Source of the DNA: Comamonadaceae bacterium
GTDB lineage: Bacteria; Pseudomonadota; Gammaproteobacteria; Burkholderiales; Burkholderiaceae_C
DNA: 49,020 bases
Direction: 5' to 3'
Assembly (NCBI GenBank): GCA_947452635.1
Contig: CANGEE010000002.1
Span: 1 to 49,020, forward strand
The notes under the pieces are model-generated. The model saw only the letters and a list, made by a program, of their open reading frames with translations. It ran no database searches and had not been told where the DNA came from. Each line of letters begins with the position of its first letter. The first letter of the stretch is position 1. The translations under genes and the position numbers were made by a program. Below, piece by piece: positions 1-48,639 of this stretch.

Positions 1-675
1 GGAGTAGTTCTGGATCACGTTGGTCAAGTTGTCGGCTGCATAGGTCAACTGGTTCACACCTGCACCAATGGAGGCGCGGGCTGAGTTCAAAGTGTCCAGT
101 GCATCATTGATGGTGGTGATGGCTGTAGACGCGCCAGACGCTGTGCTGATGTCACCAGAGACGCCGAGTCCGCTCACAGACACATTGGCAATGGTCACGG
201 TGATGGTCTGGCCACTCACTGCACCCACTTGAATATCAAAAGAGCCAGAGTTGGTAGAACCGTCCAAAATGCTCATGCCGTTCCATGTGGTTTGGCTGGC
301 GATGTTGTCGATCTGCGAGCTCAGTGCAGAAAATTCAGTCTGCAAGTAACCGCGTTGGGCAGACGAGTAAGTGGCGGTAGAGGCTTGCACAGCCAATTCA
401 CGCATGCGTTGCAAGATGTTGGACTGCTCGTTCATCGAGCCTTCAGCGGTTTGCAACATGCTGATGCCGTCATTGGCATTGCGCACCGCTTGTGTCAAAC
501 CGCGAATTTGGGCGGTCATGGTTTGGCCGATGGCCAAACCGGCTGCATCATCTGCAGCGGAATTGACGCGTGAACCTGTCGACAACTGCTGCATGGCTTG
601 CGACAAATTGCGCCCGTTCACTTTCAAAGCGCCTTGGGCAAACATTGCATTGACGTTGGTGTTAATGACTGGCAT
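1..675 (-). CDS. fliC: Flagellin, N-terminal part (cut by left edge)
   Basis: The first 225 codons of a flagellin, the filament subunit exported by the flagellar type III apparatus. The start ATG (675-673) follows a strong AGGAG ribosome-binding site. The N-terminal D0/D1 signature is clear: VINTNVNAM at the start, LSTGSRVNSAADDAAGLAI at about residues 28-46, then QRMRELAVQAS. The visible part already reaches a C-terminal D1-like stretch (ARASIGAGVNQLTYAADNL, about residues 200-218), so the central variable region is very short and the full protein is probably near 270 residues. The reading frame is open to base 1 and the C terminus is missing. It has its own sigma-28 promoter and a structured leader. 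flaG lies just upstream on the same strand. Confidence 0.96.
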   Translation of the reverse strand, partial: MPVINTNVNAMFAQGALKVNGRNLSQAMQQLSTGSRVNSAADDAAGLAIGQTMTAQIRGLTQAVRNANDGISMLQTAEGSMNEQSNILQRMRELAVQASTATYSSAQRGYLQTEFSALSSQIDNIASQTTWNGMSILDGSTNSGSFDIQVGAVSGQTITVTIANVSVSGLGVSGDISTASGASTAITTINDALDTLNSARASIGAGVNQLTYAADNLTNVIQNYS

Positions 676-837: not shown

Positions 838-1233
838 TTAAGCTTTGGCGTTGTAAAGAATGCCCTTGAGCTCATCGAGTCGGTGCGCCAAACGGATCAG
901 ATCCGTCGAGGGGATTTGCCTCACCACCTGGCCAGACTCCAGATTGCGCACCGTCACAACCGGTGTTTTGGTGCTGTCGTCGTAGGAAAAGCCCAGACCT
1001 TGCGTGGTGGAAGTCATTTGTGCATTCAGCAGATTGATGGCATCTTTCAAGCTTCTTTCCATGGCCGAGCGGTCGTATTGGATGTTGGACGTGGGCGTCG
1101 GCGTCAACTCCACCTTTTTCAAGGCTTGAGGCGTCACATTGTGCGCAATGCCGTTCGCAGCGTTACCTTGGCCGCTCAAGCCAGGAAAGGGACCGGCAGA
1201 AATGCCGCTCGTGGAAATAATTTCTGTAGACAT
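838..1233 (-). CDS. flaG: FlaG family protein
   Basis: 131 residues. FlaG proteins are small, poorly understood factors linked to filament length control. The conserved C-terminal half is visible: LGFSYDDSTKTPVVTVRN, then SGQVVRQIPS and a final LxxRLDELKGILYNAKA stretch. I chose the ATG at 1233 over upstream in-frame starts because an AGGAT ribosome-binding site precedes it and because the sigma-28 promoter lies at 1307-1333, so longer versions would start inside or before the promoter. The N-terminal half is low-complexity and variable, as usual for the family. It precedes the flagellin gene by about 160 bases on the same strand. Confidence 0.9.
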   Translation of the reverse strand: MSTEIISTSGISAGPFPGLSGQGNAANGIAHNVTPQALKKVELTPTPTSNIQYDRSAMERSLKDAINLLNAQMTSTTQGLGFSYDDSTKTPVVTVRNLESGQVVRQIPSTDLIRLAHRLDELKGILYNAKA

Positions 1234-1306
1234 GCGAAATCCTGTTCTGTCAGCCATGGCATCTTCGGCTCGATAGAGGGATTGAATGCGCAGGTTAACG
1301 AATAGT

Positions 1307-1333
1307 GAATCGGCTGCAGAGGGGAAAACTTGA
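1307..1333 (-). promoter_or_regulatory. Sigma-28 promoter of flaG
   Basis: Reads TCAAGTTT-N11-GCCGATTC on the minus strand, one of the best FliA matches here. Predicted start is near 1300, about 67 bases before the flaG ATG. Confidence 0.88.
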
Positions 1334-1388
1334 GCGTGGAAATAATTAAAACTGCGTTGGCGTTGCAGGGCGCGCCAATGGCAAACCT

Positions 1389-2192
1389 TCAATAGCCTTG
1401 CTTGTGAATTTCGGGTAAAAATTTCAATGCGATGTCGTCATAGACATCGTTGACATTGTCTCTGTGCCAAAGATCGTCTGAACGAACAGCTTGTGCACCT
1501 GCATCGGCCATGCCACTGTGCTGCTTGAAATTTTTGAAATACTCCAGACTTTGGCAAACGTAGTGGTTGATGCGCAAAAAATCATAGGTGGGAGTGACGT
1601 CCGGCATATAACCACCTTGGAGTGGACGCAGATGTTCATCCACTGTACCGTAGCGTGTCTTGAAAGTATGCGCATTCATCCCCACAGCGAACTCGCTGCC
1701 TTGTCGCCCCCGAACGATACATTTGAAGTGACGGTTATTCAAATGACTCAACTCGGGTCGGCGAAGATAATTTTGGATGATGTAACCATCAGGTTCTGCA
1801 ACATGGTTGTTGCTGCCGTAGCAGACCCACCAAACACCTAAAGCAGATATTTTTTCATAGTGGTAGCGCTGCATCACATCTTGAAGTGATTGGTTTTGGG
1901 TAGGGAAAATAAATTCATCACCATCGATGAAGGCCATCCAATCAACCTCATGCTCATAATTTTGGTAGGCATGTTGGTAGGCCGCAAGCTGCGGTCGCTG
2001 AACATCGGCAGTTAACACAAAACAGCGTATGTCAAAGTCGCGCTGCAACTGGCGTACCACCTCTTGCGAGTCGTCTTGGCACCGATGCAGAAAAATATAG
2101 AACTTAGTGAAGCCAACAGCATGGTGAAAGGCAACCCATTCTTTGAGCCATCTTCCTCGGTCGCGCTGGATGGTACAAATTCCAAGTTTCAT
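1389..2192 (-). CDS. GT92-like (DUF23-type) glycosyltransferase
   Basis: 267 residues. The N-terminal MKLGICTIQRDRGRWLKEWV, the central WMAFIDGDEFIFP motif (the acidic DGDEF is the likely metal/nucleotide-sugar site, near residue 90) and the C-terminal RINHYVCQSLEYFKNFKQ stretch fit the GT92/Glyco_tranf_2_4 type of GT-A enzyme. The ATG at 2192 is preferred to a TTG five codons upstream; neither has a strong ribosome-binding site. No signal peptide or membrane segment is seen, so it is probably cytosolic. It lies after the giant repeat gene and before flaG, separated from the former by a perfect 18-base hairpin, with no promoter of its own that I can see. The acceptor is unknown; flagellin or the repeat protein are the obvious candidates (inference). 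It is visibly more AT-rich than the flg genes. Confidence 0.82.
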   Translation of the reverse strand: MKLGICTIQRDRGRWLKEWVAFHHAVGFTKFYIFLHRCQDDSQEVVRQLQRDFDIRCFVLTADVQRPQLAAYQHAYQNYEHEVDWMAFIDGDEFIFPTQNQSLQDVMQRYHYEKISALGVWWVCYGSNNHVAEPDGYIIQNYLRRPELSHLNNRHFKCIVRGRQGSEFAVGMNAHTFKTRYGTVDEHLRPLQGGYMPDVTPTYDFLRINHYVCQSLEYFKNFKQHSGMADAGAQAVRSDDLWHRDNVNDVYDDIALKFLPEIHKQGY

Positions 2193-2226
2193 AAAGTCAT
2201 CTACCAATGTTGACGGGATTCACATG

Positions 2227-2266
2227 CGATTCGAGCACGGCACCTGAGGGTGCCGTGCTCGAATCG
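2227..2266 (-). terminator. Perfect 18-bp hairpin after giant repeat gene
   Basis: The arms CGATTCGAGCACGGCACC (2227-2244) and GGTGCCGTGCTCGAATCG (2249-2266) are perfect complements around a TGAG loop. It lies 30 bases after the stop codon of the giant repeat gene. Neither strand has a U-run next to it, so it is either a terminator without the classic tail or an RNA-stabilising or attenuating element between the repeat gene and the glycosyltransferase gene. Confidence 0.75.
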
Positions 2267-2295: not shown

Positions 2296-5200
2296 TCAGA
2301 ATGGCAATGCGGTCAGTTGATCAGAGGTCATATTGTCGATTTGATCTGAAGTCAAGGCTGAAGTTTGTGCCGTTGTCAAGGCGGCCACTTGTTCAGTCGA
2401 GAACTGCGAGATCTGATCTGTGCTGATCGTACTGATCTGAGCCGTGGTCAGTGCCAACACTTGTGCCGTGGTCAAGGCGACAATGTCAGCGCTTTCCATG
2501 TTATTGATTTGAGCCGATGTCAGCGAAGCCACTTGTGCCGTGCTCAACGCTTCCACTTGATCGGTGGTCAGTGCAACCACTTGATCGGTGCTCAACAGAA
2601 CCAGCTGCGCTGTGCTCAGATTGCGGATCTGCGCGGTACTCATCTCAGCCAGATCGGCGACTTCGATGGCGGCCAATTGGTCGCTGGTCAAAGCGTTCAA
2701 CGCAGAGCTGGTCAGGGCTTGGATCTGGTCAGTGGTCAAGGCTGCAATGGCATCCGTCGACAAAGCCTTGGCTTGTGCCGATGTCAGGGCAGCAATGTCG
2801 GCCGTTTCCATCTCAGAGACTTGTGTGCTGCTCAGGTCAGTCAACTGGGCCGTGGTCAGACTGCGGATTTGGGCTGTGGTCAGGGCAGCGACGTCATCAC
2901 TTTCCATGTTGTTGAGTTGTCCCGATGTCAAGGCCGCCACTTGCTTGGTGCTCAGGGCTTGAACTTGCTCGGTGGTCAACGCAACCACCTGGTCCGTACT
3001 CAACAGTACCAACTGCGCTGTGCTCAAAGTATTGATCTGCGCGGTGGTCATAGCAGCCAAGTCATCGACTTCGATGGCGGCCAATTGGTCGCTGGTCAAA
3101 GCGTTCAACGCAGAGCTGGTCAGGGCTTGGATCTGGTCAGTGGTCAAGGCTGCAATAGCATCTGTCGACAAAGCCTTGGCTTGTGCCGAGGTCAGAGCCG
3201 CAATGTCACGGGTTTCCATCACTGCGGTCTGTGTGCTGCTCAGGTCAGCCAGTTGCTCTGTCGTCAAGGCGCGGATCTGGGCCGTTGTAAACGCAACGAT
3301 GTCATCGCTTTCCATGCTGTTGAGTTGCTCTGATGTCAACGCGGCCACTTGAGTGCTACTCAAGGCTTGGACTTGCTTGGTTGTCAATGCCACGACTTGG
3401 TCTGTGCTCAACAACACCAATTGTGCTGTGCTCAAAGTGTTGATTTGAGCTGTGGTCATGGCAGCCAGATCATCCACTTCAATAGCACCCAGTTGATCGC
3501 TGGTCAGTGCGTTCAGTGCAGAGCTGGTCAAGGCTTTGATTTGGTCAGTGGTCAATGCGGCCACAGCATCTGTCGACAAGACCTTGGCCTGTGCCGAGGT
3601 CAGTGCGGCGATGTCGGCAGTCTCCATCACAGCCACTTGTGTGCTGCTCAAGTCTTCCAGTTGTGCGGTGGTCAAAGCACGAATCTGAGCTGTTGTGAAG
3701 GCAACAATGTCATCGCTCTCCATGCTGTTGAGCTGATCCGATGTCAACGAGGCCACTTGGTTGTTGCTCAGTGCTTGTACTTGCTTGGTCGTCAGCAACG
3801 CGATCTGATCGGTGCTGATGTTGCTGACCTGCGCGGTCACCAGGGCGCGAACCTGTGCAGTTGTCAGGGATTGCAGATTGTCACTGGCCAAGCCATTCAA
3901 TTGCTCCGAAGTGAGGGTGATCACTTGCGAGGTCGTCATGGCCTGGATTTGCTTGGATGTCATCAAAGCCAATTGGTCTGTGCTCAGCGTGCTGATCTGG
4001 GCAGTTTTCAGGCTGGCGACTTGCGTCGTGCTGAGAATCTGCAAATCGTCACTGGACATCGTGTTCAATTGCTCAGAAGTCAGCGAAACAATCTGGCTGG
4101 TGCCCAAGGCTTTCACCTGTGCCGTCGTCAAGTTGCTGATCTGCAGCGTGGTCAAAGTCGACAACTGCGCAGTGCTCAGTTTGCTCACTTGTGCTGTGGT
4201 CAATGCAGCCAGATCGTCGGTTTCCATGGCGGTGAGTTGACCGCTGTCCAGTGCATTCAGTGCGGCGCTGGTCAAGGCCGTGGCTTGCGCCGTGGTCAGT
4301 GCCACGATAGCGTCTGTGGACAACATGGCCGCTTGCGCCGCAGAAAGGGCTGCAATGTCACGTGTTTCGATCAGAGCGAGTTGGTCCGCACTCAGGGTGC
4401 TCAGCTGGTCTGTGCTCAACGCGTGAACTTGTGCGGTGGTCAAGGCTTGCAGATTGTCGCTGGTCAAGGCGTTGATCTGGTCGGAGGTGAATGCCGTGAC
4501 CTGAACCGTTGTCAAGCCTTGCATCTGACCGGTGGTCAACAAGGCCAGCTGATCTGTACTGAGCGTGCTCAGTTGATCAGAAGTCAAGCCACGGATTTGG
4601 CTGGTCGAGATGGTTTGCAAATCATCGCTCGACAAGGTGTTCAACTGGTCCGAGGTCAGTGCAGCAATCTGGCTGGTGCTCAGGGCTTTGACTTGTGCGG
4701 TGGTCAGGTTGCTGACCTGGTCGGTGCTCAAGAGCGCCAGTTGGGCCGTAGACAGCTTGCTCACTTGTGCCGTGGTCAATGCGGCCACGTCGTCTGTTTC
4801 CATGGCGGTCAGTTGACCGCTGTCCAACGCATTCAGTGCGGCGCTGGTCAAGGCCTGAGCCTGTGCGGTGGTCAGCGCCACGATGGCGTCTGTCGACAAA
4901 ACTGCGGCTTGATCGCTCGTCAAAGCGGCAACGTCACGGGTTTCTAACAGAGCCATTTGATCGCTGCTGAGCGTGCTCAATTGGTCGGTGCTGAGGGCGC
5001 GTACTTGCGCCGTGGTCAAAGCCTGCAGATCATCACTGGACAGGGTGTTGATTTGGTCTGACGTCAGCGCTGTGATTTGGTTGGTACCCAAAGCCTGGAT
5101 TTGCGCGGTGGTCAAGTTGCTGGTCTGGTTCGTGGTCAACAAAGCCAGTTGCGCGGTGTCCAATTTGCTCACTTGCGCTGTGGTCAATGCAGCCACATCT

Positions 5201-7467
5201 TCTGTTTCCATCGATGTGAGTTGGTCGCTGGTCAGTGCATTCAGCGCGGCGGTGGTCAATGCTTTGACTTGCGCGGTGGTCAGTGCCACGATGGCATCAG
5301 TCGACAACACAGCGGCTTGGGCGCTGGACAAAGCGGCCACGTCGCGGGTTTCCATCAACGACATTTGATCGCTGCTGAGCGCGCTCAACTGGTCTGTGCT
5401 GAGGGCGCGCACTTGGGCTGTGGTCAAAGCCTGCAAATCATCGCTGGACAAGGTATTGACTTGATCCGAGGTCAAAGCGGTGATTTGGTTGGTACCCAAA
5501 GCTTGGATTTGCTTGGTGGTCAAGTTGCTGGTCTGATCGGTCGTCAACAAAGCCAGTTGGGCCGTGTCCAACTTGCTCACTTGTGCCGTGGTCAGAGCGG
5601 CCACATCCTCGGTTTCCATGGATGTCAGTTGGTCACTGGTCAGCGCATTCAGTGCCGCGGTGGTCAAAGCCTGTACCTGTGCGGTTGTCATGGCCACGAT
5701 GGCATCCGTGGACAATACTGCGGCTTGGGCACTCGACAAGGCGGCGACGTCACGGGTTTCCAGCAGTGCCATTTGATCGCTGGTCAATGCGCTCAGTTGG
5801 TCTGTGGTCAAAGCACGCACCTGGGCAGTCGTCAAGGCTTGCAGGTTGTCACTGGCCATCGTGTTGATTTGGTCTGATGTCAAGGCCGTGATTTGGGCCG
5901 TGCTCAGAGCTTGAACTTGCAGGGTGGTCAACAAAACCATTTGATCGGTAGTCACCACGGCCAATTGGTCCGACGTCAGGCTGCGGATTTGACCAGTTCC
6001 CAATGTTTGCAAATCATCGCTGCTCAGGGTGTTGAGCTGATCAGAGGTCAAAGACACGATCTGGTTGGTGGTCAGTGCTTTGACTTGCTCTGTGGTCAAG
6101 TTGCTGGTCTGGCCAGTGGTCAACAAAGCCAATTGGGCCGTGTCCAATTTGCTCAATTGCGCCGTGGTCAGCGCAGCCACATCTTCTGTTTCCATCGATG
6201 TGAGTTGATCGCTGGTCAAAGCGTTCAAAGCGGCGCTGGTCAAGGCTTGGGCTTGCGCGGTGGTCATCGCCACAATGGCGTCGGTAGACAACACTGCAGC
6301 TTGGGCGCTGGACAATGCGGCCACGTCACGCGACTCCATCAGCGACATTTGGTCGCTGCTCAAGGCGCTCAATTGGTCGGTGGTCATGGCGCGCACCTGG
6401 GCCGTGGTCAGCGCCTGCAGGTTGTCGCTGACCATGGTATTGATTTGATCGGAAGTCAAAGCCGTAATTTGCGCGGTGCTCAAGGCTTGAACCTGCAAAG
6501 TGGTCAACAACACCAATTGGTCGGTGTTGATGGCGGCCAATTGCTCCGATGTCAGACTGCGAATTTGGCTGGTGCCCAGTGTCGTCAAATCATCGCTGTT
6601 GAGGCTGTTGAGCTGGTCTGAGGTCAGTGCCACCATTTGGCTTGTGGACAGCGCTTTGGCTTGCGCGGTGGTCAAGTTGCTGACTTGGCCGGTGGTCAAG
6701 ACCGCCAATTGCGCTGTTGCAAGCTTGCTCAATTGCGCTGTTGTCAAGGCCGCTACATCCTCAGTCTCCATCGAGGAAATCTGGTCGCTGGACATCGCAT
6801 TCAGCGCTGCAGTGGTCAAGGCCTTGACCTGTGCTGTGGTCAAGGCAATCACCACGTCGGTGGATAACAAGGCAACTTGTGCTGAAGAAAGAGCTGCGAC
6901 ATCACGGGTTTCCAGCACACCAACTTGTGCGGTGCTCAAGCTGTTGAGTTGATCTGAACCCAGGGCGCGAATTTGCGCGGTGGTCAGCGCCTGCAGCGCA
7001 TCAGTGGAAAAATTTGAAAACTGGTCCGTGCTCAACCCACTGATTTGCAAGGTGGTCAAGGCTTGCACTTGCAATGTGCTCAACGTCGCAATCACATCTG
7101 TTTGAAAGCTGTTGAGTTGTAAAGTGCTCAACTTAGAGATGTCTTGTGTATTGAAATAGGATAAGTTTTCAGAGGTGAAAGCGCTCAGCTGAGCGGTCGT
7201 CATGCCGACCACTTGCGAGCCTGAAATCAGACCCACTTTGCTGTAAGTCAACATGCCATCCGAAAAGTTGGTTGCATCAAAGGCACCAACTTGCGAGCTG
7301 CTCAGGTACAGAATGTCACTCGTGCCGATGGCCGCTATTTGACCGCTGGTCATCACCGCAATTTGTGCGGTGGACAGCAATTTGATGTCGGATGACGACA
7401 GATTTTGAATCTGCGTGGTGGACAACGTGGCGAACCGAGAGGCCGAAATAGAACTGATGAGCGACAT
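2296..7467 (-). CDS. Giant octapeptide-repeat protein, sigma-28 controlled
   Basis: 1723 residues of unknown function. Nearly all of it is an uninterrupted array of about 210 octapeptides with consensus L-(T/S)-(T/S)-(A/D)-Q-(V/I/L)-x-(A/S), for example LTTAQVRA-LSTDQLSA. Special octads recur in order, such as ETRDVAAL, ALNALTSD and ETEDVAAL, giving higher-order units of 17 or 24 octads. Only about the first 90 residues and the last few (ending ALPF) are less regular. I see no cysteine or tryptophan and a single proline, near the C terminus. The protein is rich in Ser, Thr, Ala and Gln and is acidic. The N terminus (MSLISSISASRFATLSTTQ) has no Sec signal or lipobox and no membrane segment is seen. 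The ATG at 7467 has only a weak purine-rich site upstream. A strong sigma-28 promoter and a leader hairpin precede it. Export by the flagellar apparatus or another Sec-independent route, and a surface or filament role, are inference. Confidence 0.85.
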   Translation of the reverse strand: MSLISSISASRFATLSTTQIQNLSSSDIKLLSTAQIAVMTSGQIAAIGTSDILYLSSSQVGAFDATNFSDGMLTYSKVGLISGSQVVGMTTAQLSAFTSENLSYFNTQDISKLSTLQLNSFQTDVIATLSTLQVQALTTLQISGLSTDQFSNFSTDALQALTTAQIRALGSDQLNSLSTAQVGVLETRDVAALSSAQVALLSTDVVIALTTAQVKALTTAALNAMSSDQISSMETEDVAALTTAQLSKLATAQLAVLTTGQVSNLTTAQAKALSTSQMVALTSDQLNSLNSDDLTTLGTSQIRSLTSEQLAAINTDQLVLLTTLQVQALSTAQITALTSDQINTMVSDNLQALTTAQVRAMTTDQLSALSSDQMSLMESRDVAALSSAQAAVLSTDAIVAMTTAQAQALTSAALNALTSDQLTSMETEDVAALTTAQLSKLDTAQLALLTTGQTSNLTTEQVKALTTNQIVSLTSDQLNTLSSDDLQTLGTGQIRSLTSDQLAVVTTDQMVLLTTLQVQALSTAQITALTSDQINTMASDNLQALTTAQVRALTTDQLSALTSDQMALLETRDVAALSSAQAAVLSTDAIVAMTTAQVQALTTAALNALTSDQLTSMETEDVAALTTAQVSKLDTAQLALLTTDQTSNLTTKQIQALGTNQITALTSDQVNTLSSDDLQALTTAQVRALSTDQLSALSSDQMSLMETRDVAALSSAQAAVLSTDAIVALTTAQVKALTTAALNALTSDQLTSMETEDVAALTTAQVSKLDTAQLALLTTNQTSNLTTAQIQALGTNQITALTSDQINTLSSDDLQALTTAQVRALSTDQLSTLSSDQMALLETRDVAALTSDQAAVLSTDAIVALTTAQAQALTSAALNALDSGQLTAMETDDVAALTTAQVSKLSTAQLALLSTDQVSNLTTAQVKALSTSQIAALTSDQLNTLSSDDLQTISTSQIRGLTSDQLSTLSTDQLALLTTGQMQGLTTVQVTAFTSDQINALTSDNLQALTTAQVHALSTDQLSTLSADQLALIETRDIAALSAAQAAMLSTDAIVALTTAQATALTSAALNALDSGQLTAMETDDLAALTTAQVSKLSTAQLSTLTTLQISNLTTAQVKALGTSQIVSLTSEQLNTMSSDDLQILSTTQVASLKTAQISTLSTDQLALMTSKQIQAMTTSQVITLTSEQLNGLASDNLQSLTTAQVRALVTAQVSNISTDQIALLTTKQVQALSNNQVASLTSDQLNSMESDDIVAFTTAQIRALTTAQLEDLSSTQVAVMETADIAALTSAQAKVLSTDAVAALTTDQIKALTSSALNALTSDQLGAIEVDDLAAMTTAQINTLSTAQLVLLSTDQVVALTTKQVQALSSTQVAALTSEQLNSMESDDIVAFTTAQIRALTTEQLADLSSTQTAVMETRDIAALTSAQAKALSTDAIAALTTDQIQALTSSALNALTSDQLAAIEVDDLAAMTTAQINTLSTAQLVLLSTDQVVALTTEQVQALSTKQVAALTSGQLNNMESDDVAALTTAQIRSLTTAQLTDLSSTQVSEMETADIAALTSAQAKALSTDAIAALTTDQIQALTSSALNALTSDQLAAIEVADLAEMSTAQIRNLSTAQLVLLSTDQVVALTTDQVEALSTAQVASLTSAQINNMESADIVALTTAQVLALTTAQISTISTDQISQFSTEQVAALTTAQTSALTSDQIDNMTSDQLTALPF
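2310..7420 (-). repeat. 24-bp tandem array with 408/576-bp super-repeats
   Basis: The coding DNA of the giant protein is a tandem array with a 24-base period. Tracking the ETRDVAAL-type octad gives marks at 6905, 6329, 5753, 5345, 4937, 4361, 3617, 3209 and 2801. The intervals are 576, 576, 408, 408, 576, 744, 408 and 408 bases, all exact multiples of 24. This shows block duplications of 17 or 24 octads with the frame always kept. Confidence 0.9.
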
Positions 7468-7829: not shown

Positions 7830-10538
7830 ATGAACGCTGACATTTCGAATCAAGTGCCTGAAGAAATGGATCACTCAGAGGCTACATCTGAAGAACTCAA
7901 AAACGACATTGTTTCCGGACACATGTCGCAAATTGATTTGATGCGGCATGTTCAGAATTTGGAGTCCATGGGAGAAACCCGGGCGGCTGCCAATTTATGT
8001 GTTTTGTGGATCAACCACGCGCCTGCAACCGGTAAGCACTTTGCGCTGTTCAATTACGGCGGCTTGTTGCAGACCTTGGGCCGCTTTGACGACGCGCAAG
8101 TGGCCTACGAGTCTTGCATCTCATTGCAAGATGACTTTCCTCAGGCGTATATCAATCTGGGGTTGATGCTCGAAAAACTCGGCAAGACGGAGCAGGCTTT
8201 AAATACCTGGTTGCTGTTGATTGGACGTCGCTACCTCAACAAGCCACCGCCTGTGGAATTTCTTGCGATGGCGTTGAACCACGTCGGGCGAGTACAAGAA
8301 ACCTTGAAAAATTATGCGCAGGCGGAGGAGGCATTGGAGCAAAGTTTGCTTTTGCAGCCCAAGCAGCCTGGTGTCATTCAGCATTGGGTCCATATACGTC
8401 AAAAGGCCTGCAAATGGCCGGTTTACAAAGCACTGCCAGGCATCAGTTTGGCGGAGTTACGTCGGTGTACGTCACCGCTGGCCATGCTGGCATTGACAGA
8501 AGAGCCGGCTGAACAGCTGGCCATATCTCAGGCCTTTGTCGCCAGAACCTATGGATTTAAAGAGGAATTTTTGTTCCACGGCCATTCTTGGAAACATGAC
8601 AAGGTGCGTGTGGGCTATGTGTCTGGTGATTTCCGTGAGCATGCGGTGGGCTTTTTGTTGCCCCCATTTCTCAAAGGACACAGCCGAGACCAGTTTGAAC
8701 TGTATGCCTATGACTTCAGCCGAGAAGAGGCAACTCCGCTGAGAATGCAACTCAAAAATCAATTCGATCATTTCAAATCAATAGTGAAAGTATCCGATCG
8801 ACAAGCGGCTGAGATCATATTGAGTGATGAGATTGATGTACTGATTGATTTGCACGGATTGAGTTCCGGTGCACGCCCTGGCATATTTGCACTTCACCCC
8901 GCACCTAAGCAAGGCACCTATTTGGGATTCATTGGCCCGACAGGAATGCCCTGGTTTGACTTTGTGATGGCGGACCCGCATGTGTTGCCTGCCGAGTTGG
9001 CGAATTATTTCTCTGAGAAGCCGATCTATTTAGAGGGCTCTTTTCTGCCCATGGTTTCAAACGCAGACCCCAGTTTGCGTGTCACAAGGCAAGAGTTGGG
9101 TTTGCCTGAAACTGCCTTTGTGATGGCCAGTTTTGGGAACTCTTACAAAATAACCCCTGAGATGTTCACCGCTTGGCTGCGTTTATTAGAGCGCATGCCT
9201 GACGCGGTGTTGTGGTTGATTGATGACAATGAAGTTGGCACGCGCAATCTGCGGGCACATGCCCAGCAATTGGGTATTTCAGCAGAGCGTTTGTTCTTCA
9301 TGCCCAGAACAACGCATGTCCAGTTCTGTGCCAGGCTCAAACTGGCTGATGTTTTCCTGGACACCTACCCTTATAACTGCGGTTCAACCAGCAACGATGT
9401 GATTGCTGCAGGGGTGCCTTTGGTGACAAGATATGGTCGCACCATGGTTTCGCGCATGGGGTTGAGCCTGATGCAAGCCATGCACGTACCTGAAATGGCC
9501 ACCCGCTCGTTAGCGGACTATGAAGATAAGGTGCTGGAGATTTATTTGAAAAATAAAGCCGGGGTCTTGGCTCCTCGGTACCGCAGCGAAGACGCTATGA
9601 ATATCGATCTGGCGCTGTCGCAAATTGTCAATGATGTTCACCTTCAGGAGCCAGTTGCCAAGTTGGAAGTCAAGTCGCAACCGAAACTGCGATTGCACCA
9701 GATTTGCTATTCAGACGAGACGACACAAAACATCCCCGCTCAGTTTTTGGCTCTTGAGAACCTGAATAACCATCGACCCGACTGGCGAGAATACTGGCCT
9801 ATTCGTCAATTCTTATTGAACCATACGCTGGAAGACGACACGTTTTATGGATTTTTGTCGCCCAGATTCACTTACAAAACCGGATTGGATTTTGAAAAAA
9901 TTAGAAATTTTGTGCATCAACATGGCCGTGCGCATGACGTGCTCATCTTCAGCCCATTTTGGGATCTAAACAGTTTCTTTTTGAACCCGTTTTTGCAAGG
10001 TGAATTCTTTCACCCTGGGCTTTTAGAATCGATGCAAAAATTCTCAGACCATGCTGGATTGCAGCTGAACTTGAATACGGTAGTGATGCATACAGACAAT
10101 ACAGCTTTTTGCAATTACTTCATTGCCAAAAAGAAATTTTGGTTGCATTGGCTAGAGTTAGGCGAGAAGTTGTTTCAGGTGGCTGAATCTGGGCAAGGTG
10201 ATGTTGCGAAATCTTTGCAGCAAAATACTTTGTATTCACAAGAGTATTTGCCGCACAAGATTTTTGTTCAAGAACGCTTGGTCAATTTGGTGCTGGCGCA
10301 AGCGACATTCAAGTCCAAGGCCTTCAATGTATTTGACATGCCGGGCTCGGTCACGCCATTGAATCAATTCATGCCTCAAGCTGTGATCGCCAATGCTTTG
10401 AAACTGGCACATGTGCAATTGGGGGCACAGGAATACCTGGATGCCTATGGACACACCCGTGAACTGGTGTGGGAGCAAAGTGGCATGGCCAAGTTGGCAG
10501 AACTGCGAGATGGGTTGAAAGAGCCGCCAGCCGCCTAA
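7830..10538 (+). CDS. TPR/OGT-type glycosyltransferase with extra C-terminal domain
   Basis: 902 residues. The ATG at 7830 has AGGTG eight bases upstream; the TTG directly before it is less likely. Residues about 50-190 look like tetratricopeptide repeats (for example FDDAQVAYESCISLQDDFPQA). Residues about 255-590 match the catalytic region of the O-GlcNAc transferase/SPINDLY (GT41) family: VRVGYVSGDFREHAVGFLL with the conserved His, DVLIDLHGLSSGARPGIFAL, PAPKQGTYLGFIGPTGMPW, SFGNSYKI with a Lys at the nucleotide-sugar position, and LADVFLDTYPYNCGSTSND. Residues about 630-900 form a further domain (YGFLSPRFTYKTGL, DVLIFSPFWDLNSFFLNPF, DNTAFCNYFIAKKKFW) whose function I do not know. No signal peptide is seen, so it is cytosolic. 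The family adds sugars to Ser/Thr of proteins; flagellin or the neighbouring Ser/Thr-rich repeat protein are likely targets (inference). A sigma-54 promoter places it in the flagellar hierarchy. Confidence 0.87.
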   Translation: MNADISNQVPEEMDHSEATSEELKNDIVSGHMSQIDLMRHVQNLESMGETRAAANLCVLWINHAPATGKHFALFNYGGLLQTLGRFDDAQVAYESCISLQDDFPQAYINLGLMLEKLGKTEQALNTWLLLIGRRYLNKPPPVEFLAMALNHVGRVQETLKNYAQAEEALEQSLLLQPKQPGVIQHWVHIRQKACKWPVYKALPGISLAELRRCTSPLAMLALTEEPAEQLAISQAFVARTYGFKEEFLFHGHSWKHDKVRVGYVSGDFREHAVGFLLPPFLKGHSRDQFELYAYDFSREEATPLRMQLKNQFDHFKSIVKVSDRQAAEIILSDEIDVLIDLHGLSSGARPGIFALHPAPKQGTYLGFIGPTGMPWFDFVMADPHVLPAELANYFSEKPIYLEGSFLPMVSNADPSLRVTRQELGLPETAFVMASFGNSYKITPEMFTAWLRLLERMPDAVLWLIDDNEVGTRNLRAHAQQLGISAERLFFMPRTTHVQFCARLKLADVFLDTYPYNCGSTSNDVIAAGVPLVTRYGRTMVSRMGLSLMQAMHVPEMATRSLADYEDKVLEIYLKNKAGVLAPRYRSEDAMNIDLALSQIVNDVHLQEPVAKLEVKSQPKLRLHQICYSDETTQNIPAQFLALENLNNHRPDWREYWPIRQFLLNHTLEDDTFYGFLSPRFTYKTGLDFEKIRNFVHQHGRAHDVLIFSPFWDLNSFFLNPFLQGEFFHPGLLESMQKFSDHAGLQLNLNTVVMHTDNTAFCNYFIAKKKFWLHWLELGEKLFQVAESGQGDVAKSLQQNTLYSQEYLPHKIFVQERLVNLVLAQATFKSKAFNVFDMPGSVTPLNQFMPQAVIANALKLAHVQLGAQEYLDAYGHTRELVWEQSGMAKLAELRDGLKEPPAA

Positions 10539-10656: not shown

Positions 10657-12153
10657 TCAGTTATTTTTGTACATGTTCGACATGCCCGCAAAAGTGCTGG
10701 TCAGGCTGGTGCCCAAACTCTTTGATTCGCCGACGATGCTCTCCATCGCCGAGAATTGTTTGTTGTAGCGGGCCAGCAGCATGTCCATGCGGTCGCTGAG
10801 TTTTTGCAGGTCGTCTTGGTAACTTTGCACTTGCTTGTCGGCGTTCTTGCTGTTGACAAACAAGACGCCACTTTTGTCGCCATTGGAGGAATCCAATAGG
10901 CTGGTCAAACTGACAATGGCATCGCCTGCAATGCCAGCGGTGGTCGCGCTGGTCACGTAGGTGCCATTGGCGATGTTGTTACTGAACATGGTGACCACAT
11001 CACCGAAGGAGTTGGTGAGTGCCGTGTCCAAGGCGGTCTGGTCCAGTTTCATATCGCCGTTGGACTGCACCGTGATCCCAACGTCCCTCAAAGCAGTCAT
11101 GCTGCCCGAAGCTGCCGCTGACGAGGCATCATCCATGAACATGCTGCGCACCTGTGACTTGATGGTGTCAACCACGGAGTCACCCACCAATGTTGCGCCG
11201 TATAAATCCACTTTGGATTTAGGATCTGTCGCATCTTTCATGATGGACATCAGATCGTTGTAGGCTGAAACCAATGCTTGCACATTGGTTTTGACTTGAC
11301 CGACATCACGTGCCAGTCCCAGTTTCCCGGGTGCATCAGTGATCGCCAATAAATTCAAGTTGACGCCCGTGATGGCATCGTCAATTTGATTGCTGCTGCG
11401 TGTCAAGGTCAGGCCATCGACGGTGATGACGGCATCGGCAGCAGCTTGCCCTGAGATGACACCAAAATCCAAAACGGAGGGCTCATCACTGGTTAATGTG
11501 AAGGCATTGCTGGTACCCGATTCACCCGTCACAATCAATTGGTAACCACTGGTCGAGTTGATATACACCACGGAGGCGGTCACGCCCGCGTTGGCTGAAT
11601 TGATTGAGTCTGCGATCCCGGTAAGACTGTCATCCGCGGAAAGGGCAATTTTTTTGGCTGTACCGCCGTTCACCGTCAAGTAAAGATCGGTCGCACTGGA
11701 CAGCCCAATGGAAGCCGATGAATCGGTGATGACTGTGCTGCCTGCGCCAATCGAACTTTGGCTGCGCTGAGGCGCCGCTAAGGCGCTGACCGACACGGTG
11801 TGGTTGCCGGCCGTGGCATTCGAGTCTGAAGTGGCGGTGAAATAGCTGCTTTTGTTGTTGGTGAGCGTGACCGAGTTGAAATCGGTTTTATTGTTCAAGG
11901 CACTGAAAGCCGTTTTGAGCTGATCCAAGCCGAAGCGCAAAGCCGAATAGCCGGAAATGCGCGCATTGGCTTTGTCAATTTTTTTGTTGATGGCCGCTTC
12001 ACGAGGTTGGCGCTCGACATCCACCAAGGATTGGGCCAAGGCTTTGACATCCATGCCTGAGCCAGCACCCATCACATTGACAATGTTGGGCTTGGCTGCG
12101 GCAGTCACGCTGCCAGTCGAATTGACCGAAGAACTGACAGAAGAAGTGGCCAT
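10657..12153 (-). CDS. fliD: Flagellar filament cap protein FliD (HAP2)
   Basis: 498 residues. FliD forms the cap at the filament tip that folds incoming flagellin. The FliD_N region is seen at about residues 27-125 (GAGSGMDVKALAQSLVDVE, then SGYSALRFGLDQLKTAFSAL), and the FliD_C region from about 230 to the end (LTRSSNQIDDAITGVNLNL, ALVSAYNDLMSIM, LLARYNKQFSAMESIVGE). No Sec signal is present, as expected for an export substrate of the flagellar apparatus. It starts 43 bases after flgL and appears to be the last gene of the flg operon rather than sitting beside the flagellin and fliS, which is the common place. The gap before it shows no convincing promoter. Confidence 0.95.
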   Translation of the reverse strand: MATSSVSSSVNSTGSVTAAAKPNIVNVMGAGSGMDVKALAQSLVDVERQPREAAINKKIDKANARISGYSALRFGLDQLKTAFSALNNKTDFNSVTLTNNKSSYFTATSDSNATAGNHTVSVSALAAPQRSQSSIGAGSTVITDSSASIGLSSATDLYLTVNGGTAKKIALSADDSLTGIADSINSANAGVTASVVYINSTSGYQLIVTGESGTSNAFTLTSDEPSVLDFGVISGQAAADAVITVDGLTLTRSSNQIDDAITGVNLNLLAITDAPGKLGLARDVGQVKTNVQALVSAYNDLMSIMKDATDPKSKVDLYGATLVGDSVVDTIKSQVRSMFMDDASSAAASGSMTALRDVGITVQSNGDMKLDQTALDTALTNSFGDVVTMFSNNIANGTYVTSATTAGIAGDAIVSLTSLLDSSNGDKSGVLFVNSKNADKQVQSYQDDLQKLSDRMDMLLARYNKQFSAMESIVGESKSLGTSLTSTFAGMSNMYKNN

Positions 12154-12196: not shown

Positions 12197-13120
12197 TTAT
12201 TTAATGAAGTTGAACAAATTCAACTGCGTGATCTTGGCAAAGCTGCTTTGCGAGGCTTCCAGCGACAGCATCTGCTTGTTCATCTTGGTGATGGCTTCGG
12301 CCATGTCCAAATCTTCGACATTCGACAGCGTGGTCTTGAGCGTGAGTTTGGTGTCGTCAATCACCTGATTTTGCTGCTCCACCACATTCAGATCGGTACC
12401 TACTTTGGCTTGGGCCAGGCTCACGCCGTTGAGCAAGGTGTCCATTTCGCCAACACCTTGCGTCATCGCCTTATGATCTGAATTGTTGATGCCAGCGATC
12501 AAGTCATCCATTGCACCAAAAAACTCACGGTTGGCTTTTTGCCCTGTGCTGTCCGTGCGTGTCACGCCAACAAAGGCTTCAGAGCCACTGCGGTTCAGCG
12601 GGATGCTGCGCTGGTCACCCACTTGCACATACATGCGGGTTTGGTCACCTTGGTAGGTGGCCTCGCCATGGGTGTCTTGGAAAAACGGGGGCTGTTTCAG
12701 GCGGCTGCCTGAAAAATAGAAATTGCCATTGGAGTCTTTGGAGTTGGCCAGACTGAGCATTTGATCGCGCACAGCTTTGAGTTCCACGCCCAAGGCTTGG
12801 CGGTTTTGCGTGCTCAAGGTGTCGTTGGATGCTTGGACCGAAATTTCTTTGGCGCGAATCAGCAAGTCACTCACGCTTTTCAGGGTGGTGTCTTCACCCT
12901 CCAGGCGGGCTTTGACGGTGGTCAGCGTCTTGGCATAACTGTCTTGTTTGGCCAGCACGGTTTTCAGGCGTTGAATGGCGGCGGCTTGATCCGGCGCGTC
13001 CGAAGGGGTCAGCACTTGTTTGCCCGCCGACACCTGCGCTTGGGTATGCGCCAGATCGGTTTGTACCGTGCTCATTTGCGTGACCGAACGGTCAAAGAGG
13101 TAAGAGGTCGAAATTTTCAT
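12197..13120 (-). CDS. flgL: Hook-filament junction protein FlgL (HAP3)
   Basis: 307 residues, the usual length. FlgL is the second junction protein between hook and filament. The flagellin-like N terminus (MKISTSYLFDRSV, then SAGKQVLTPSDAPDQAA) and the C-terminal helix (NVEDLDMAEAITKMNKQML, ending TQLNLFNFIK) are clear. The start ATG is at 13120, 14 bases after the flgK stop, so the genes are cotranscribed. No Sec signal is present, as expected for a type III export substrate. Confidence 0.96.
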   Translation of the reverse strand: MKISTSYLFDRSVTQMSTVQTDLAHTQAQVSAGKQVLTPSDAPDQAAAIQRLKTVLAKQDSYAKTLTTVKARLEGEDTTLKSVSDLLIRAKEISVQASNDTLSTQNRQALGVELKAVRDQMLSLANSKDSNGNFYFSGSRLKQPPFFQDTHGEATYQGDQTRMYVQVGDQRSIPLNRSGSEAFVGVTRTDSTGQKANREFFGAMDDLIAGINNSDHKAMTQGVGEMDTLLNGVSLAQAKVGTDLNVVEQQNQVIDDTKLTLKTTLSNVEDLDMAEAITKMNKQMLSLEASQSSFAKITQLNLFNFIK

Positions 13121-13134
13121 GGCTCAAGTCCGTT

Positions 13135-16100
13135 TCAGCGCACTTGCAAAATGCTGTCAAACAACTGGCTGCCCACTTGCAGCACTTTGGCGGCGGCTTG
13201 GTACGCTTGTTGGAAGCGAATCAAATCGGCCGCCTCTTGGTCCAGGCTGACACCCGAGACCTGGTCTTTGGCCGTGACCGCTTGCTCATGCACCACTTTC
13301 AACGCCGCTTGGGCAATGGTGGCTTGGCGTGCAATATTGCCCACGTTGTTGACGTGATCGATATACGCGGTGCTCAGGGTTTTGTTGCCCACAAAACTTT
13401 TATTCTCCAGCGCCGCCACGGCCAGCATGTTCTCGTTATTGCCGGTGCCGTCGGCGTTGCCATCTACTTTGTAAATGTCACCGGCAGCGGGCGGCTTGAC
13501 GAAAGAAATTTGCAAACCCTGAAAAGTGATGCCTGGGTCCAATTGCGTGGGATCTAAGTCCCGTTCAGCCAAGATGGTGTCGGTGTTGACATCGCGAATG
13601 CGGTAATGCGTGGCGGAGGTGAAATTCAAATCCAAGGGTTGTGCGCGCAGTGATTGGCGCGCGTCTGCGGGCTTGCCTGAATACGAGGCCGCCACTCTGG
13701 CGGTCCCTGCGCCGGTCACAAAAACCAACAAATCATCTTTGGCTGCGCCTTCAATGTAGACACCTGTGCGCATGCCCAACTGGGCCAAGTCCGCTGGGGT
13801 GCCCGTGCCAAAACCCAGTTCAATGGGCGTGTCGGCCACAGTGGACTTCGTTGCGGCTGCCGTGATTGCACTTCTAAAGACCTGCGCGGGTAAGCCCAAA
13901 GCATTGCCGATCGCATTATCCCCGGCGCTGTTGGTCGCGATTTGTATGCTGTTGTTGTCAGGACCGTTGAGACTGGTCAAGTTCAAACTACCATCTAAGC
14001 CCACTGAGGCGGTTACCACCGATTGGGCTTTGTTGATCGCCGCTGCTAAATTTTGTACCGAACCAAAACCAATGCCGATTTGACCAATGGTTTGCCCGTT
14101 GATCGCCAAAGGCAGCGATAAATTGAGTTGGCCCGCCGGAATTTTGATCTGATTCAGATTGCTCTGTGTGACCGGCGCGGCGGCAAGCGGTCTTTTGAGC
14201 GTGATGGATCCGCCGTACATGCCAGGGGTGAGGCCCAAAGCATTGCCGGGGGCGTTGGAGACAAGTTGCGCTTGAATGTCGATATTGCTGCCATCGGCGC
14301 TACTGAGCACAAATGAGCCATCGATACCCAGGCTGGCCGTCACACCTGCAATGTTCTTGCTGTTGATGGCATCGACCAGGGCTTTTTTGTTGTCAAACGG
14401 GCCAGCGCCAATAGGGGTGTCGTTGATAACCAAACTGGCATCAAGATTCAATTGCCGATCCGGCACATGAATCTCATTCATGGCCGTTGCTGTAACCCCT
14501 GAGGGTTTGGGTTGTGTGCCAGGTAGATTGGCCTGATTGAGCCAAGACGCCATGTCTTTGGCGCTGAGCTTGTCGTTGCCGATGGGCACCAAGGCCCCCA
14601 GACTGACGCCATTGAGTACAAAAGCACCCGCAGCGAAGCCTGTGCTTTGCGGATCAATGGGGCCGCCGTTCAGCACAGCCGCCAGCGGCGTACTGCCCAA
14701 AATATGGCCTGAGTTGTCGAAATTGGGTTGCTGCAAAACTGCGGCGCGTGCACCGTAAAAAACGGTCATGTCCTTGTAGCCCGTGGGACCACTTTTATTC
14801 AAATAGTCAGCGCTGTAAGTTGCACCTTCGGCAATGCCGCTGGTGGACATGAGTGCAGCGCCCATCAGCGACGTGGGGTCTATGGCCGCACCCAAAATCT
14901 GACGCCCGTCGCGCGTCATCACCTGCAGTTGCTGGCCCGCCTTGGCATGGTCCAGAAAAATGCTGACATCTTGCATACCGCTTTGCACTGTGGCCACGGC
15001 CATGGCGGGACGGGTTTGATCGATCGTGATCGCGCGACCTGCGCTGGGATTGTCATTGTTGACGAGAATGTCCTGCAGTGCATTAGGCCCAGGCGCAGCG
15101 GTTGAACTGGCCGGGTCTTCAAACCGCACTGTCGTGATGCCGCCACCTGTATTGTTCGGGTCTTGGATGACTCGAAATTGTGCAGCCGCAGAGACTTTCA
15201 TCGGGTCTTCAAAGGCCACCTTCAGACCGCCGGCAATGCTGCTGGCGCTGGCATCGATGCTAAACAAAGGGCCGCCCGGTTGACCATAACCATCAATCCC
15301 TTGGGCATGGACTTTGTTGATTTCTTGACTCAAAGTCTGGGCCAAATTGTCCAAGGCACTGCGCGAGGTGTTCAGCACTTGTTCTTGAAACGCGATCAGA
15401 CCCGACAAACTGCCACTGGTGATACCCGTCAGTGTCGATGGCGTACCGTATTGGTCCAAAACTAAATTGGTTTTGCCAGGCGAGTCTGGGTTTTCTGTGG
15501 TTGAAATCAATTTGCTGTAATTGCCGTCCACCACCACGTCTTGGTTGATGGAGGCACCTAAACTGACTTTGACCGTACCGTTGGAAGTGAAGCTGGCATT
15601 CACATGGACATAAGCTGATAAGTCGCTGAGCAATTTATCGCGTTGGTCTAACAGATCCGGCGGCTGAGCCCCTTCCGTTTGCACCTTGGTCAGCTGTTTG
15701 TTGACGTTGGCCAGCTCACCAAAAATGGTGTTCATCTTGCTGACGCTGCTTTGCACGGCCTGGTCGGTTTCTGATTGGACCATGTCGAGTTGCGAAGACA
15801 ACTCGCCAAAGCGCGAGGTCAGACCTTGTGCATCGCGCACAAAACTGCCGCGCAGCACGTTGGAGGCAGGGTCCGAGGACAGGTCGCGGGCTGAATTGAA
15901 AAACTGGTCCAGCGCCGTGGTCAAACCCGTGGTGGGGCCGCCCATGACATCGATCACGCGGTTGGCGTAATTGACCATGGGTTCTTGGCTGGTCAAATCG
16001 GAGTTGCTGTTGCGCAAATTGGCTTCGGTAAAGGCGTCGTACTGGCGCTTCACGCCGGCGACGATCACGCCTGTACCCAAATACACATTGCCGACCTTGC

Positions 16101-16239
16101 TGACCGGGTTGGCTTCGAGTGTGATTTCTTGGCGAGAGTAACCATCGGTCGACACGTTGGCGATGTTGTTACTCACCGTGCCCAGGGCACGTTGGTAGGC
16201 GGCTACGGCATTACCGGCAACGGCAACCAGATCGGTCAT
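13135..16239 (-). CDS. flgK: Hook-filament junction protein FlgK (HAP1), oversized
   Basis: 1034 residues, far longer than the 550-650 typical of FlgK. The N terminus (VAGNAVAAYQRALGTVSNN, then IANVSTDGYSRQEI) and the C terminus (ALKVVHEQAVTAKDQVSGV, then LIRFQQAYQAAAKVLQVG) are classical. The middle holds an insertion with two related modules, one near residue 590 (DRQLNLDASLVINDTPI) and one near 705 (AGQLNLSLPLAINGQTI). Each is followed by a VTASxGxDGSxxLxS segment and a NALGL segment. These match the 'flagellin hook IN' type of motif found in hook-associated proteins. The start overlaps the flgJ stop (16236-16239), so translation is coupled. The extra modules probably sit on the outer surface of the junction (inference). 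Confidence 0.94.
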   Translation of the reverse strand: MTDLVAVAGNAVAAYQRALGTVSNNIANVSTDGYSRQEITLEANPVSKVGNVYLGTGVIVAGVKRQYDAFTEANLRNSNSDLTSQEPMVNYANRVIDVMGGPTTGLTTALDQFFNSARDLSSDPASNVLRGSFVRDAQGLTSRFGELSSQLDMVQSETDQAVQSSVSKMNTIFGELANVNKQLTKVQTEGAQPPDLLDQRDKLLSDLSAYVHVNASFTSNGTVKVSLGASINQDVVVDGNYSKLISTTENPDSPGKTNLVLDQYGTPSTLTGITSGSLSGLIAFQEQVLNTSRSALDNLAQTLSQEINKVHAQGIDGYGQPGGPLFSIDASASSIAGGLKVAFEDPMKVSAAAQFRVIQDPNNTGGGITTVRFEDPASSTAAPGPNALQDILVNNDNPSAGRAITIDQTRPAMAVATVQSGMQDVSIFLDHAKAGQQLQVMTRDGRQILGAAIDPTSLMGAALMSTSGIAEGATYSADYLNKSGPTGYKDMTVFYGARAAVLQQPNFDNSGHILGSTPLAAVLNGGPIDPQSTGFAAGAFVLNGVSLGALVPIGNDKLSAKDMASWLNQANLPGTQPKPSGVTATAMNEIHVPDRQLNLDASLVINDTPIGAGPFDNKKALVDAINSKNIAGVTASLGIDGSFVLSSADGSNIDIQAQLVSNAPGNALGLTPGMYGGSITLKRPLAAAPVTQSNLNQIKIPAGQLNLSLPLAINGQTIGQIGIGFGSVQNLAAAINKAQSVVTASVGLDGSLNLTSLNGPDNNSIQIATNSAGDNAIGNALGLPAQVFRSAITAAATKSTVADTPIELGFGTGTPADLAQLGMRTGVYIEGAAKDDLLVFVTGAGTARVAASYSGKPADARQSLRAQPLDLNFTSATHYRIRDVNTDTILAERDLDPTQLDPGITFQGLQISFVKPPAAGDIYKVDGNADGTGNNENMLAVAALENKSFVGNKTLSTAYIDHVNNVGNIARQATIAQAALKVVHEQAVTAKDQVSGVSLDQEAADLIRFQQAYQAAAKVLQVGSQLFDSILQVR

Positions 16240-47892: not shown

Positions 47893-48639
47893 ATGGTTGT
47901 CTCTACACGTTTGTATGCAGAAGTGCAAAACAACAGCGAAGCGCTGGTGTTGGCGCATCTGGGCATGGTCAAACGGGTGGCATTGCATTTAAAGGTGCGC
48001 TTGCCGCCCTTCATGGAATTGGATGAATTGATCCAGGTCGGCATGATTGGCTTGTTGGAGGCCTCACGCGCCTATGACCCGGCCAAGGGCATTGAATTTG
48101 AAAATTTTGCCCACAGTCGCGTGCGGGGCGCCATTTTGGACGAAGTTCGCCGACTGTCTTTTTTACCTCGCTCGGCGGTGGCCATCAACAAATCGCACAG
48201 TGAAGCCACCCATGAATTGGCCGCCGATTTAGGTCGAACGCCCACCCAAGCCGAATTGGCTGAGCACATGGGCAAGGACATTGAGCTGTTTCACAAAGAG
48301 CGCAGCCAAGCGCGTCGCTTTGAAACCTATTCGATGGAAGTGGTCTCTGAAGAGGTCATGAACATCGCCGGAGACGCCTCCAGGCAGCCCGAAGCCATTG
48401 TGGAGCACGAGCAATTCATGCAAGCACTGACAGGGGCGATCGCCGATTTGCCTGAGCGCGAGCAGTTGCTAATGAATTTGTACTACGTTGAAGAGCTGAA
48501 CCTGAAAGAAATTGGTGAAGTTCTGGGCGTGACCGAGTCGCGGGTCAGCCAGTTGCTGACCGCGGTCGTGAAGAAATTGCGCGGCAGCTTGAATGTCACC
48601 CCAGTGGAGACATCCAAGCCGCGTGCGGCGAAAGCGTAA
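47893..48639 (+). CDS. fliA: Flagellar sigma-28 factor FliA
   Basis: 248 residues, normal for FliA. Region 2 includes LVLAHLGMVKRVALHLKVRL, then MELDELIQVGMIGLLEASRA. Region 4 carries the helix-turn-helix NLKEIGEVLGVTESRVSQLL near 205-225. It starts 6 bases after flhG, so it belongs to the flhA operon. It reads the six sigma-28 promoters listed here and is inhibited by FlgM (27162-27491). Confidence 0.97.
   Translation: MVVSTRLYAEVQNNSEALVLAHLGMVKRVALHLKVRLPPFMELDELIQVGMIGLLEASRAYDPAKGIEFENFAHSRVRGAILDEVRRLSFLPRSAVAINKSHSEATHELAADLGRTPTQAELAEHMGKDIELFHKERSQARRFETYSMEVVSEEVMNIAGDASRQPEAIVEHEQFMQALTGAIADLPEREQLLMNLYYVEELNLKEIGEVLGVTESRVSQLLTAVVKKLRGSLNVTPVETSKPRAAKA

Follow-up and report, generated by a model that had tools for sequence, protein, structure and literature searches.

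The locus

The window, a 49,020-nucleotide stretch of a Comamonadaceae metagenome-assembled genome (MAG), carries a gene for a giant octapeptide-repeat protein amid flagellar genes (Table 1). A reading made earlier from the sequence alone had placed an open reading frame of 1723 residues at 2296-7467; the frame exists but its strand needed correcting, as it runs on the minus strand and the plus strand over this interval is broken by stops. A gene for a tetratricopeptide-repeat (TPR) glycosyltransferase of family GT41 is divergent from the octad gene and 360 bp away from it. The 101-nt stretch around the inverted repeat folds at -44.7 kcal/mol (z -6.95); the hairpin is possibly a terminator or a 3' stabiliser, with no clear T run.

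The cluster also contains FlgE, FlgD and FlgI, and homology searches, with seed names partly assigned by us, located FlhA, FlhB, FliI, FliP and FliR in the window. The profile used for the flagellin also finds the annotated flagellins of a Pseudorhizobium plasmid (L111). A sigma-28-type site (1333-1307, minus strand) falls within the 5' portion of the called flaG frame, and the true start may therefore be further in. We note that FlgE (936 residues) and FlgK (1034 residues) are long, exceeding the usual sizes of hook proteins.

Table 1. Features of the window discussed in the text
Feature	Position	Strand	Basis and remarks
Flagellin, 5' part; frame runs past the window end	1..675	-	homologues in L025
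FlaG	838..1392	-	PF03646
Downstream glycosyltransferase (Glyco_transf_92 / Glyco_tranf_2_4)	1389..2207	-	domain search
Perfect 18-bp inverted repeat	2227..2266	-	just past the ALTTAQ stop codon
Giant ALTTAQ octad-repeat protein P0001, 1723 aa	2296..7467	-	start 7467, stop 2296; PF20080, repeat analysis
N-terminal part (residues 1-89) with FSDG[MIL]L[TV]Y insert	7201..7467	-	pattern search, alignment, model
Candidate sigma-28 (FliA) promoter, TCAAGTT-N13-CCGAATC, TCAAGTTTTACAAAGCAGGTCCGAATC	7599-7573	-	motif; about 105 bp before the octad start codon
TPR + GT41 (O-GlcNAc-transferase-like) glycosyltransferase, ~902 aa	7830..10538	+	PF13844 2.5e-62, TPR
FliD	10657-12153	-	domain search
FlgL-type flagellin-domain protein	12197-13120	-	domain search
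FlgK	13135-16239	-	domain search
FlgE	20208-23018	-	
FliA, sigma-28 factor	47893..48639	+	PRK06986, 233 bits, cut-off 201

The octad repeat and its family

From residue 89 to its end the protein consists of 204 octads in a single register with no insertion or deletion, and 202 of them match a loose octad pattern. Identity at a lag of eight residues is 0.345, compared with a mean of 0.114 in 1000 shuffles (s.d. 0.007, maximum 0.136). Octads can also be made out in residues 1-88, where there is one insert; the earlier count of about 210 octads is sound. Ser or Thr occupies octad position 2 or 3 in 201/204 cases. Longer periods of 17 octads (identity 0.573) and 24 octads (0.543) are also present in the sequence, which suggests that the repeat grew by way of larger blocks. 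The protein has no Trp, 46 Lys and Arg, and 157 Asp and Glu; it also has no Cys and so no lipobox. The highest 19-residue Kyte-Doolittle mean, a marginal 1.66 at residue 190, falls within ordinary octads, and the N terminus reaches 0.66; there is no Sec signal and no clear membrane segment, much as claimed earlier.

The N-terminal insert is confined to the window's genus: its pattern occurs in 4 of 53 ALTTAQ open reading frames (window, L024, L058 and L059), at least six of the 53 being without their N terminus. It is common to the ALTTAQ members paired with close orthologues of the window GT41. Compared with the homologue in L025 in the best ungapped register, the octad gene shows 76.5% identity, a dN of 0.168 and a dS of 1.83 (near saturation); this register is not the C-terminal one, and position-for-position orthology is unsure. 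The ratio, which is approximate, is consistent with purifying selection.

The octad repeat is that of Pfam family PF20080 (ALTTAQ), matched at 1222 bits (curated cut-off 26.4) over 65 stretches. A profile search of this kind had been proposed in the sequence-only reading, which recognised no characterised family. The repeat is catalogued and "no family" is thus wrong, while "uncharacterised" may hold: no paper on the function of ALTTAQ/PF20080 was found, those containing the string pf20080 being judged by title and looking unrelated. The PF20080 model covers 38 positions and describes the repeat alone, to which the window member adds a flagellar promoter and the genus-specific insert. An NCBIfam search of P0001 gave no match. 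Matches to Pfam CAAP1, Fibrinogen_BP and Sigma70_r4_2 and sequence matches to leucine-rich repeats and mesothelin were judged composition-driven and set aside; PHROG 15773 (function unassigned) also matched, and tblastn of phage records found no octad protein.

Predicted fold

The run of octads was modelled, as had also been proposed, with AlphaFold2. For residues 185-400, using 21 other windows of the octad protein as the alignment, the model has a pLDDT of 86.9 and a pTM of 0.79; its 216 residues hold 24 helices of at least four residues, the C-terminal end of the model being unreliable. Nearly every octad is modelled as one helix of 4-6 residues and a short turn, and the whole protein is predicted to be a very long, regular alpha-solenoid, a kind of screw. 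A model of residues 1-300 aligned with four homologues (pLDDT 90.9) places repeat helices from about residue 9, the first blocks having mean pLDDT of 86-95.

Foldseek against the PDB returned a single match at E ≤0.001, mesothelin (8cx3_B, E 8.5e-4), which resembles the octad model in being a chain of short helices. With a TM-score of 0.40 and an rmsd of 10 Å the likeness is local and no homology is claimed. The best sequence match in the PDB is HeliScrew4 (9zem; phmmer 1.2e-14, residues 1358-1466), a short chain of 120 residues with the same kind of octads; the name is that of its depositors and no paper was found. It was not among the 50 Foldseek matches listed, and its likeness is known from sequence.

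A sigma-28 promoter sequence upstream of the octad gene

The sequence-only reading gave the gene its own sigma-28 promoter, and the octad gene does carry the promoter sequence of a FliA-dependent late flagellar gene. The strict motif TCAAGTTN13CCGAWNC, which was devised with the sites of the window and of two same-genus genomes (G020 and G026) already known, has five matches in the window against 0.01 expected. These are all the matches of the 2.7-Mb assembly, in which a reversed-pattern control has one; over six genomes searched the motif has 21 matches and the reversed control 6. Looser scoring does not set the site apart: the octad-gene site scores 18, a value reached or exceeded at 39 real sites and at 26 and 38 sites in two shuffles.

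The strict motif recurs before the ALTTAQ homologues of G020 and G026 and, in G035, ahead of the gene orthologous to the window GT41, the last being an out-of-sample case. Among 53 ALTTAQ open reading frames, six of them with at most 3 bp of upstream sequence, it lies upstream of three, all of the window's genus. It is absent before the same-genus genes of G002 (L024), G009 (L061, L062) and G033 (L064) and was not found at ALTTAQ loci outside the genus. Judged from these sequences, the octad gene is probably under FliA control and expressed along with flagellin when the flagella are made.

Distribution and the locus sample

PF20080 was detected in 9/60 genomes of a set of relatives (8 over the cut-off) and 24/397 genomes of a phylum set (20 over the cut-off), the window's own genome included in both, as well as in 64 plasmid records, 57 of which match 80% of the query at a single place. 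Neighbours were surveyed at 45 ALTTAQ locus entries across Proteobacteria. Of the 64 plasmid records, 23, spread over genera, were taken and 22 counted. Loci with few octads (L066 of G007, L067 of G013, L077-L078 of G227) were left out before the count, as were L079 (G140; 21 octads in a gene cut by a contig end) and the Polaromonas locus L126, which failed the octad rule. The entries leave out most octad genes of the other phylum-set genomes and are not independent: L059/L060 and L063/L064 are pairs of contigs from G026 and G033 (possibly one gene each), L061 and L062 both come from G009, on separate contigs, and L107 is closely related to L125, as is L108 to L112.

Two observations concern the family at large. 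In each of three genomes (G124, G156, G163; family f72) several long open frames, lying on separate contigs and reaching 6436 residues, match the octads. The octad protein of Cereibacter sphaeroides 2.4.1 (L107, 11992-16677) is annotated as an "ICE nucleation protein" and in other strains as a "heme utilization protein"; both are likely misnomers.

The GT41 partner

The sequence-only reading missed the commonest neighbour of the family, the adjacent GT41 glycosyltransferase. GT41 lies within 10 kb of ALTTAQ at 24/45 entries and within 1.2 kb at 20/45; it is present at 24/35 evaluable entries (GT41 found, or both flanks reaching 5 kb) and at 16/27 when 5 kb of sequence is required on each side. 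At one further locus (L082, G093) it falls just outside the counted stretch. About 0.15 chance GT41 neighbours would be expected in nine genomes that were chosen for having the neighbour, GT41 gene numbers being taken as half of the GT41 piece counts. No GT41 neighbour was seen in G009, G033, G021 and G390, three of which are on cut contigs, nor at L026, where one flank is 3.7 kb. It is also missing at 11 entries that have 5 kb on each side (L074, L076, L114-L117, L120-L124), so GT41 is not obligatory, which counts against a fixed module. GT41 occurs in 32/60 relatives and 128/397 phylum genomes, own included in both, and in 22/27 ALTTAQ genomes; because such co-presence is a weak argument, we rely on adjacency.

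Among 59 other genomes, four (G002, G020, G026 and G035) have a close orthologue of the window GT41, at 57-68% identity. In the first three the orthologue adjoins ALTTAQ, as in the window. G035 was scored ALTTAQ-negative; its contig breaks off immediately ahead of where ALTTAQ should begin and the shared sigma-28 site is present, and it is therefore not counted as a negative. G009, G021 and G033 have octad genes and no close orthologue of the window GT41. FlhA is present in 31/36 same-genus genomes, own included, so the window GT41 tracks the octad gene rather than flagella at large.

From about residue 575 to 902 (9549-10538, plus strand) the GT41 enzyme has no Pfam match. A 429-residue open frame on contig C195 of G035 matches its residues 617-881 at 47% identity, and this C-terminal part may thus be a fused separate protein. 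Other glycan genes accompany the family: a homologue of the second window glycosyltransferase lies directly downstream of ALTTAQ in L065, UDP-galactopyranose mutase is near ALTTAQ at 5/45 entries, and gmd, dTDP-rhamnose and UDP-glucuronate decarboxylase genes are near some loci.

The gene order suggests that the GT41 enzyme O-glycosylates the Ser/Thr rows of the octad protein in the cytoplasm; its TPR part would recognise the octad repeat and the GT92-type downstream enzyme may extend the glycan. As a counter-point, Ser/Thr at the helix start may serve folding as N-caps instead of being glycosylated. FlmG of Caulobacter, a TPR plus GT-B enzyme, is described as modifying flagellins in the cytoplasm (PMC7591256). 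By description the window enzyme would be like FlmG, a cytoplasmic TPR and GT-B enzyme acting on a surface protein exported independently of Sec, and unlike it in its proposed substrate, the octad protein in place of flagellin. Probable flagellin glycosylation is also described for Rhizobium (PMC2936354). With the FlmG precedent, and with its gene sitting among flagellar genes, the window GT41 could instead glycosylate flagellin, the ALTTAQ protein being a mere neighbour or a cytosolic helper. We consider this quite improbable, given that the GT41-ALTTAQ pair is kept with no flagellar genes near it in Pseudomonas (L023), Rhodobacter (L027), Cereibacter (L107) and Rhizobium (L108), and that within the genus, most members of which have FlhA, every close orthologue seen sits either with ALTTAQ or where the contig is broken.

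Linkage to export systems

A type I secretion (T1SS) ABC transporter of at least 500 residues lies within 10 kb of ALTTAQ at 12/45 entries and flagellar genes at 9/45; no entry has both. Seven of the nine flagellar entries are Burkholderiales (window, L025, L029, L059 and L060 of one genome, L065 and G020), and flagellar linkage may thus be mostly that of one lineage. The other two are alphaproteobacterial plasmids. On that of Rhodovastum the octad gene lies beside a flagellar system; that of Pseudorhizobium (L111, NZ_LR723674.1, 4245-14729) has a cassette of two flagellins, FlgE, GT41 and an octad gene, adjoined by glf, and the features listed for about the first 50 kb of its 107 kb include none for flagellar export. 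The earlier proposal of flagellar export gains from these two plasmids and loses from the greater number of T1SS entries; it finds no support as a general rule for the family.

Two members of the window's genus, G009 and G033, have T1SS-linked octad genes. At L061 (2242-6768, G009) HlyD, a T1SS ABC transporter and a MotB-plug/OmpA protein adjoin the octad gene. The same-genus genomes G002, G020, G021 and G026 have T1SS adaptors away from it. A C-terminal DxWF segment, which we take to be linked to T1SS, occurs in the frames of L023, L028, L062, L063, L070, L105 and L106, of which L028 and L062 have a Ca-binding-like stretch as well; the segment is absent from the window protein.

That the window gene has no secretion gene other than flagellar ones near it, as had been read from the sequence, agrees with our searches: there is no T1SS gene within 10 kb, and the assembly has no HlyD adaptor over the cut-off (TIGR01843 best 34 bits, cut-off 208.65), the sole exception among 13 ALTTAQ genomes searched. 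Because the MAG is 84% complete this absence may be a gap and is suggestive at most. The best ABC match of the assembly, the only one classified, is a cyanophycin-associated transporter; a cyanophycin synthetase gene lies beside it (L127, 6446-11093).

The same glycoprotein might accordingly be secreted by an unlinked T1SS, with the flagellar neighbourhood giving FliA timing alone. The T1SS-linked entries, those of G009 and G033 included, speak for this route, as does the HlyD adaptor in 12/13 ALTTAQ genomes. The short hydrophobic C-terminal ends, ALPF in the window protein and ALFL or ALFM in the T1SS-linked L027, L107, L110 and L118, could be a C-terminal export signal, though they may be no more than the final half octad. 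We regard the T1SS route as somewhat unlikely for the window gene, in view of the weak HlyD score and the cyanophycin-associated ABC match (weaker ABC matches being left unclassified) and of the separation of T1SS and flagellar genes over all 45 entries. Giant adhesins of the LapA/RTX type, which use T1SS, are likewise giant, repetitive and free of a Sec signal, and ABC, HlyD and TolC genes lie beside some ALTTAQ homologues. The ALTTAQ protein differs from these adhesins in its helical octads and in the lack of a T1SS gene near the window gene; a Pfam scan of it reported no RTX repeat.

Of dedicated Sec-independent exporters, the flagellar apparatus alone was found in the assembly, so it is the leading, unproven route. 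Flagellar export substrates usually have a long unstructured N-terminal tail or signal, and the fold predicted from about residue 9 is unlike a typical flagellar signal, an indirect counter-point drawn from a model. The sequence and model, with no Sec signal, clear membrane segment or disordered N-terminal tail, would also suit a protein that stays in the cytosol and is never exported, serving there as a scaffold or as a solenoid for binding. This we think improbable, as it leaves aside the repeated linkage of the family to T1SS ABC, HlyD, TolC and glycan genes.

Interpretation

Tentatively, we favour a surface solenoid that is O-glycosylated in the cytoplasm, exported independently of Sec and controlled by FliA within the flagellar regulon of the window's genus. 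FliA would transcribe the octad gene along with flagellin, and the product would leave through a Sec-independent channel to form a glycan-bearing rod outside the cell, on its surface or on the flagellar filament, where it may serve adhesion or shielding. Ancestrally the gene probably had a type I secretion system as its export partner, and its recruitment to the flagellar regulon would have come in the window's genus. It is doubtful, though conceivable, that the GT41 enzyme is dedicated to the giant helical-screw protein across interchangeable exporters, an undescribed glycoprotein system in which the flagellum is the exporter in the window's genus.

A catalogued repeat family thereby gains a testable hypothesis that gives it a partner enzyme and a Sec-independent exporter, to which flagellar control is added in the window's genus. 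If true, bacterial GT41 enzymes would have a new class of substrate, and a surface protein of T1SS type would have been re-wired into the flagellar regulon. On the doubtful reading of a dedicated system with interchangeable exporters, the cell would build, together with its filament, a sugar-coated superhelical rod that could act as a filament coat or tether.
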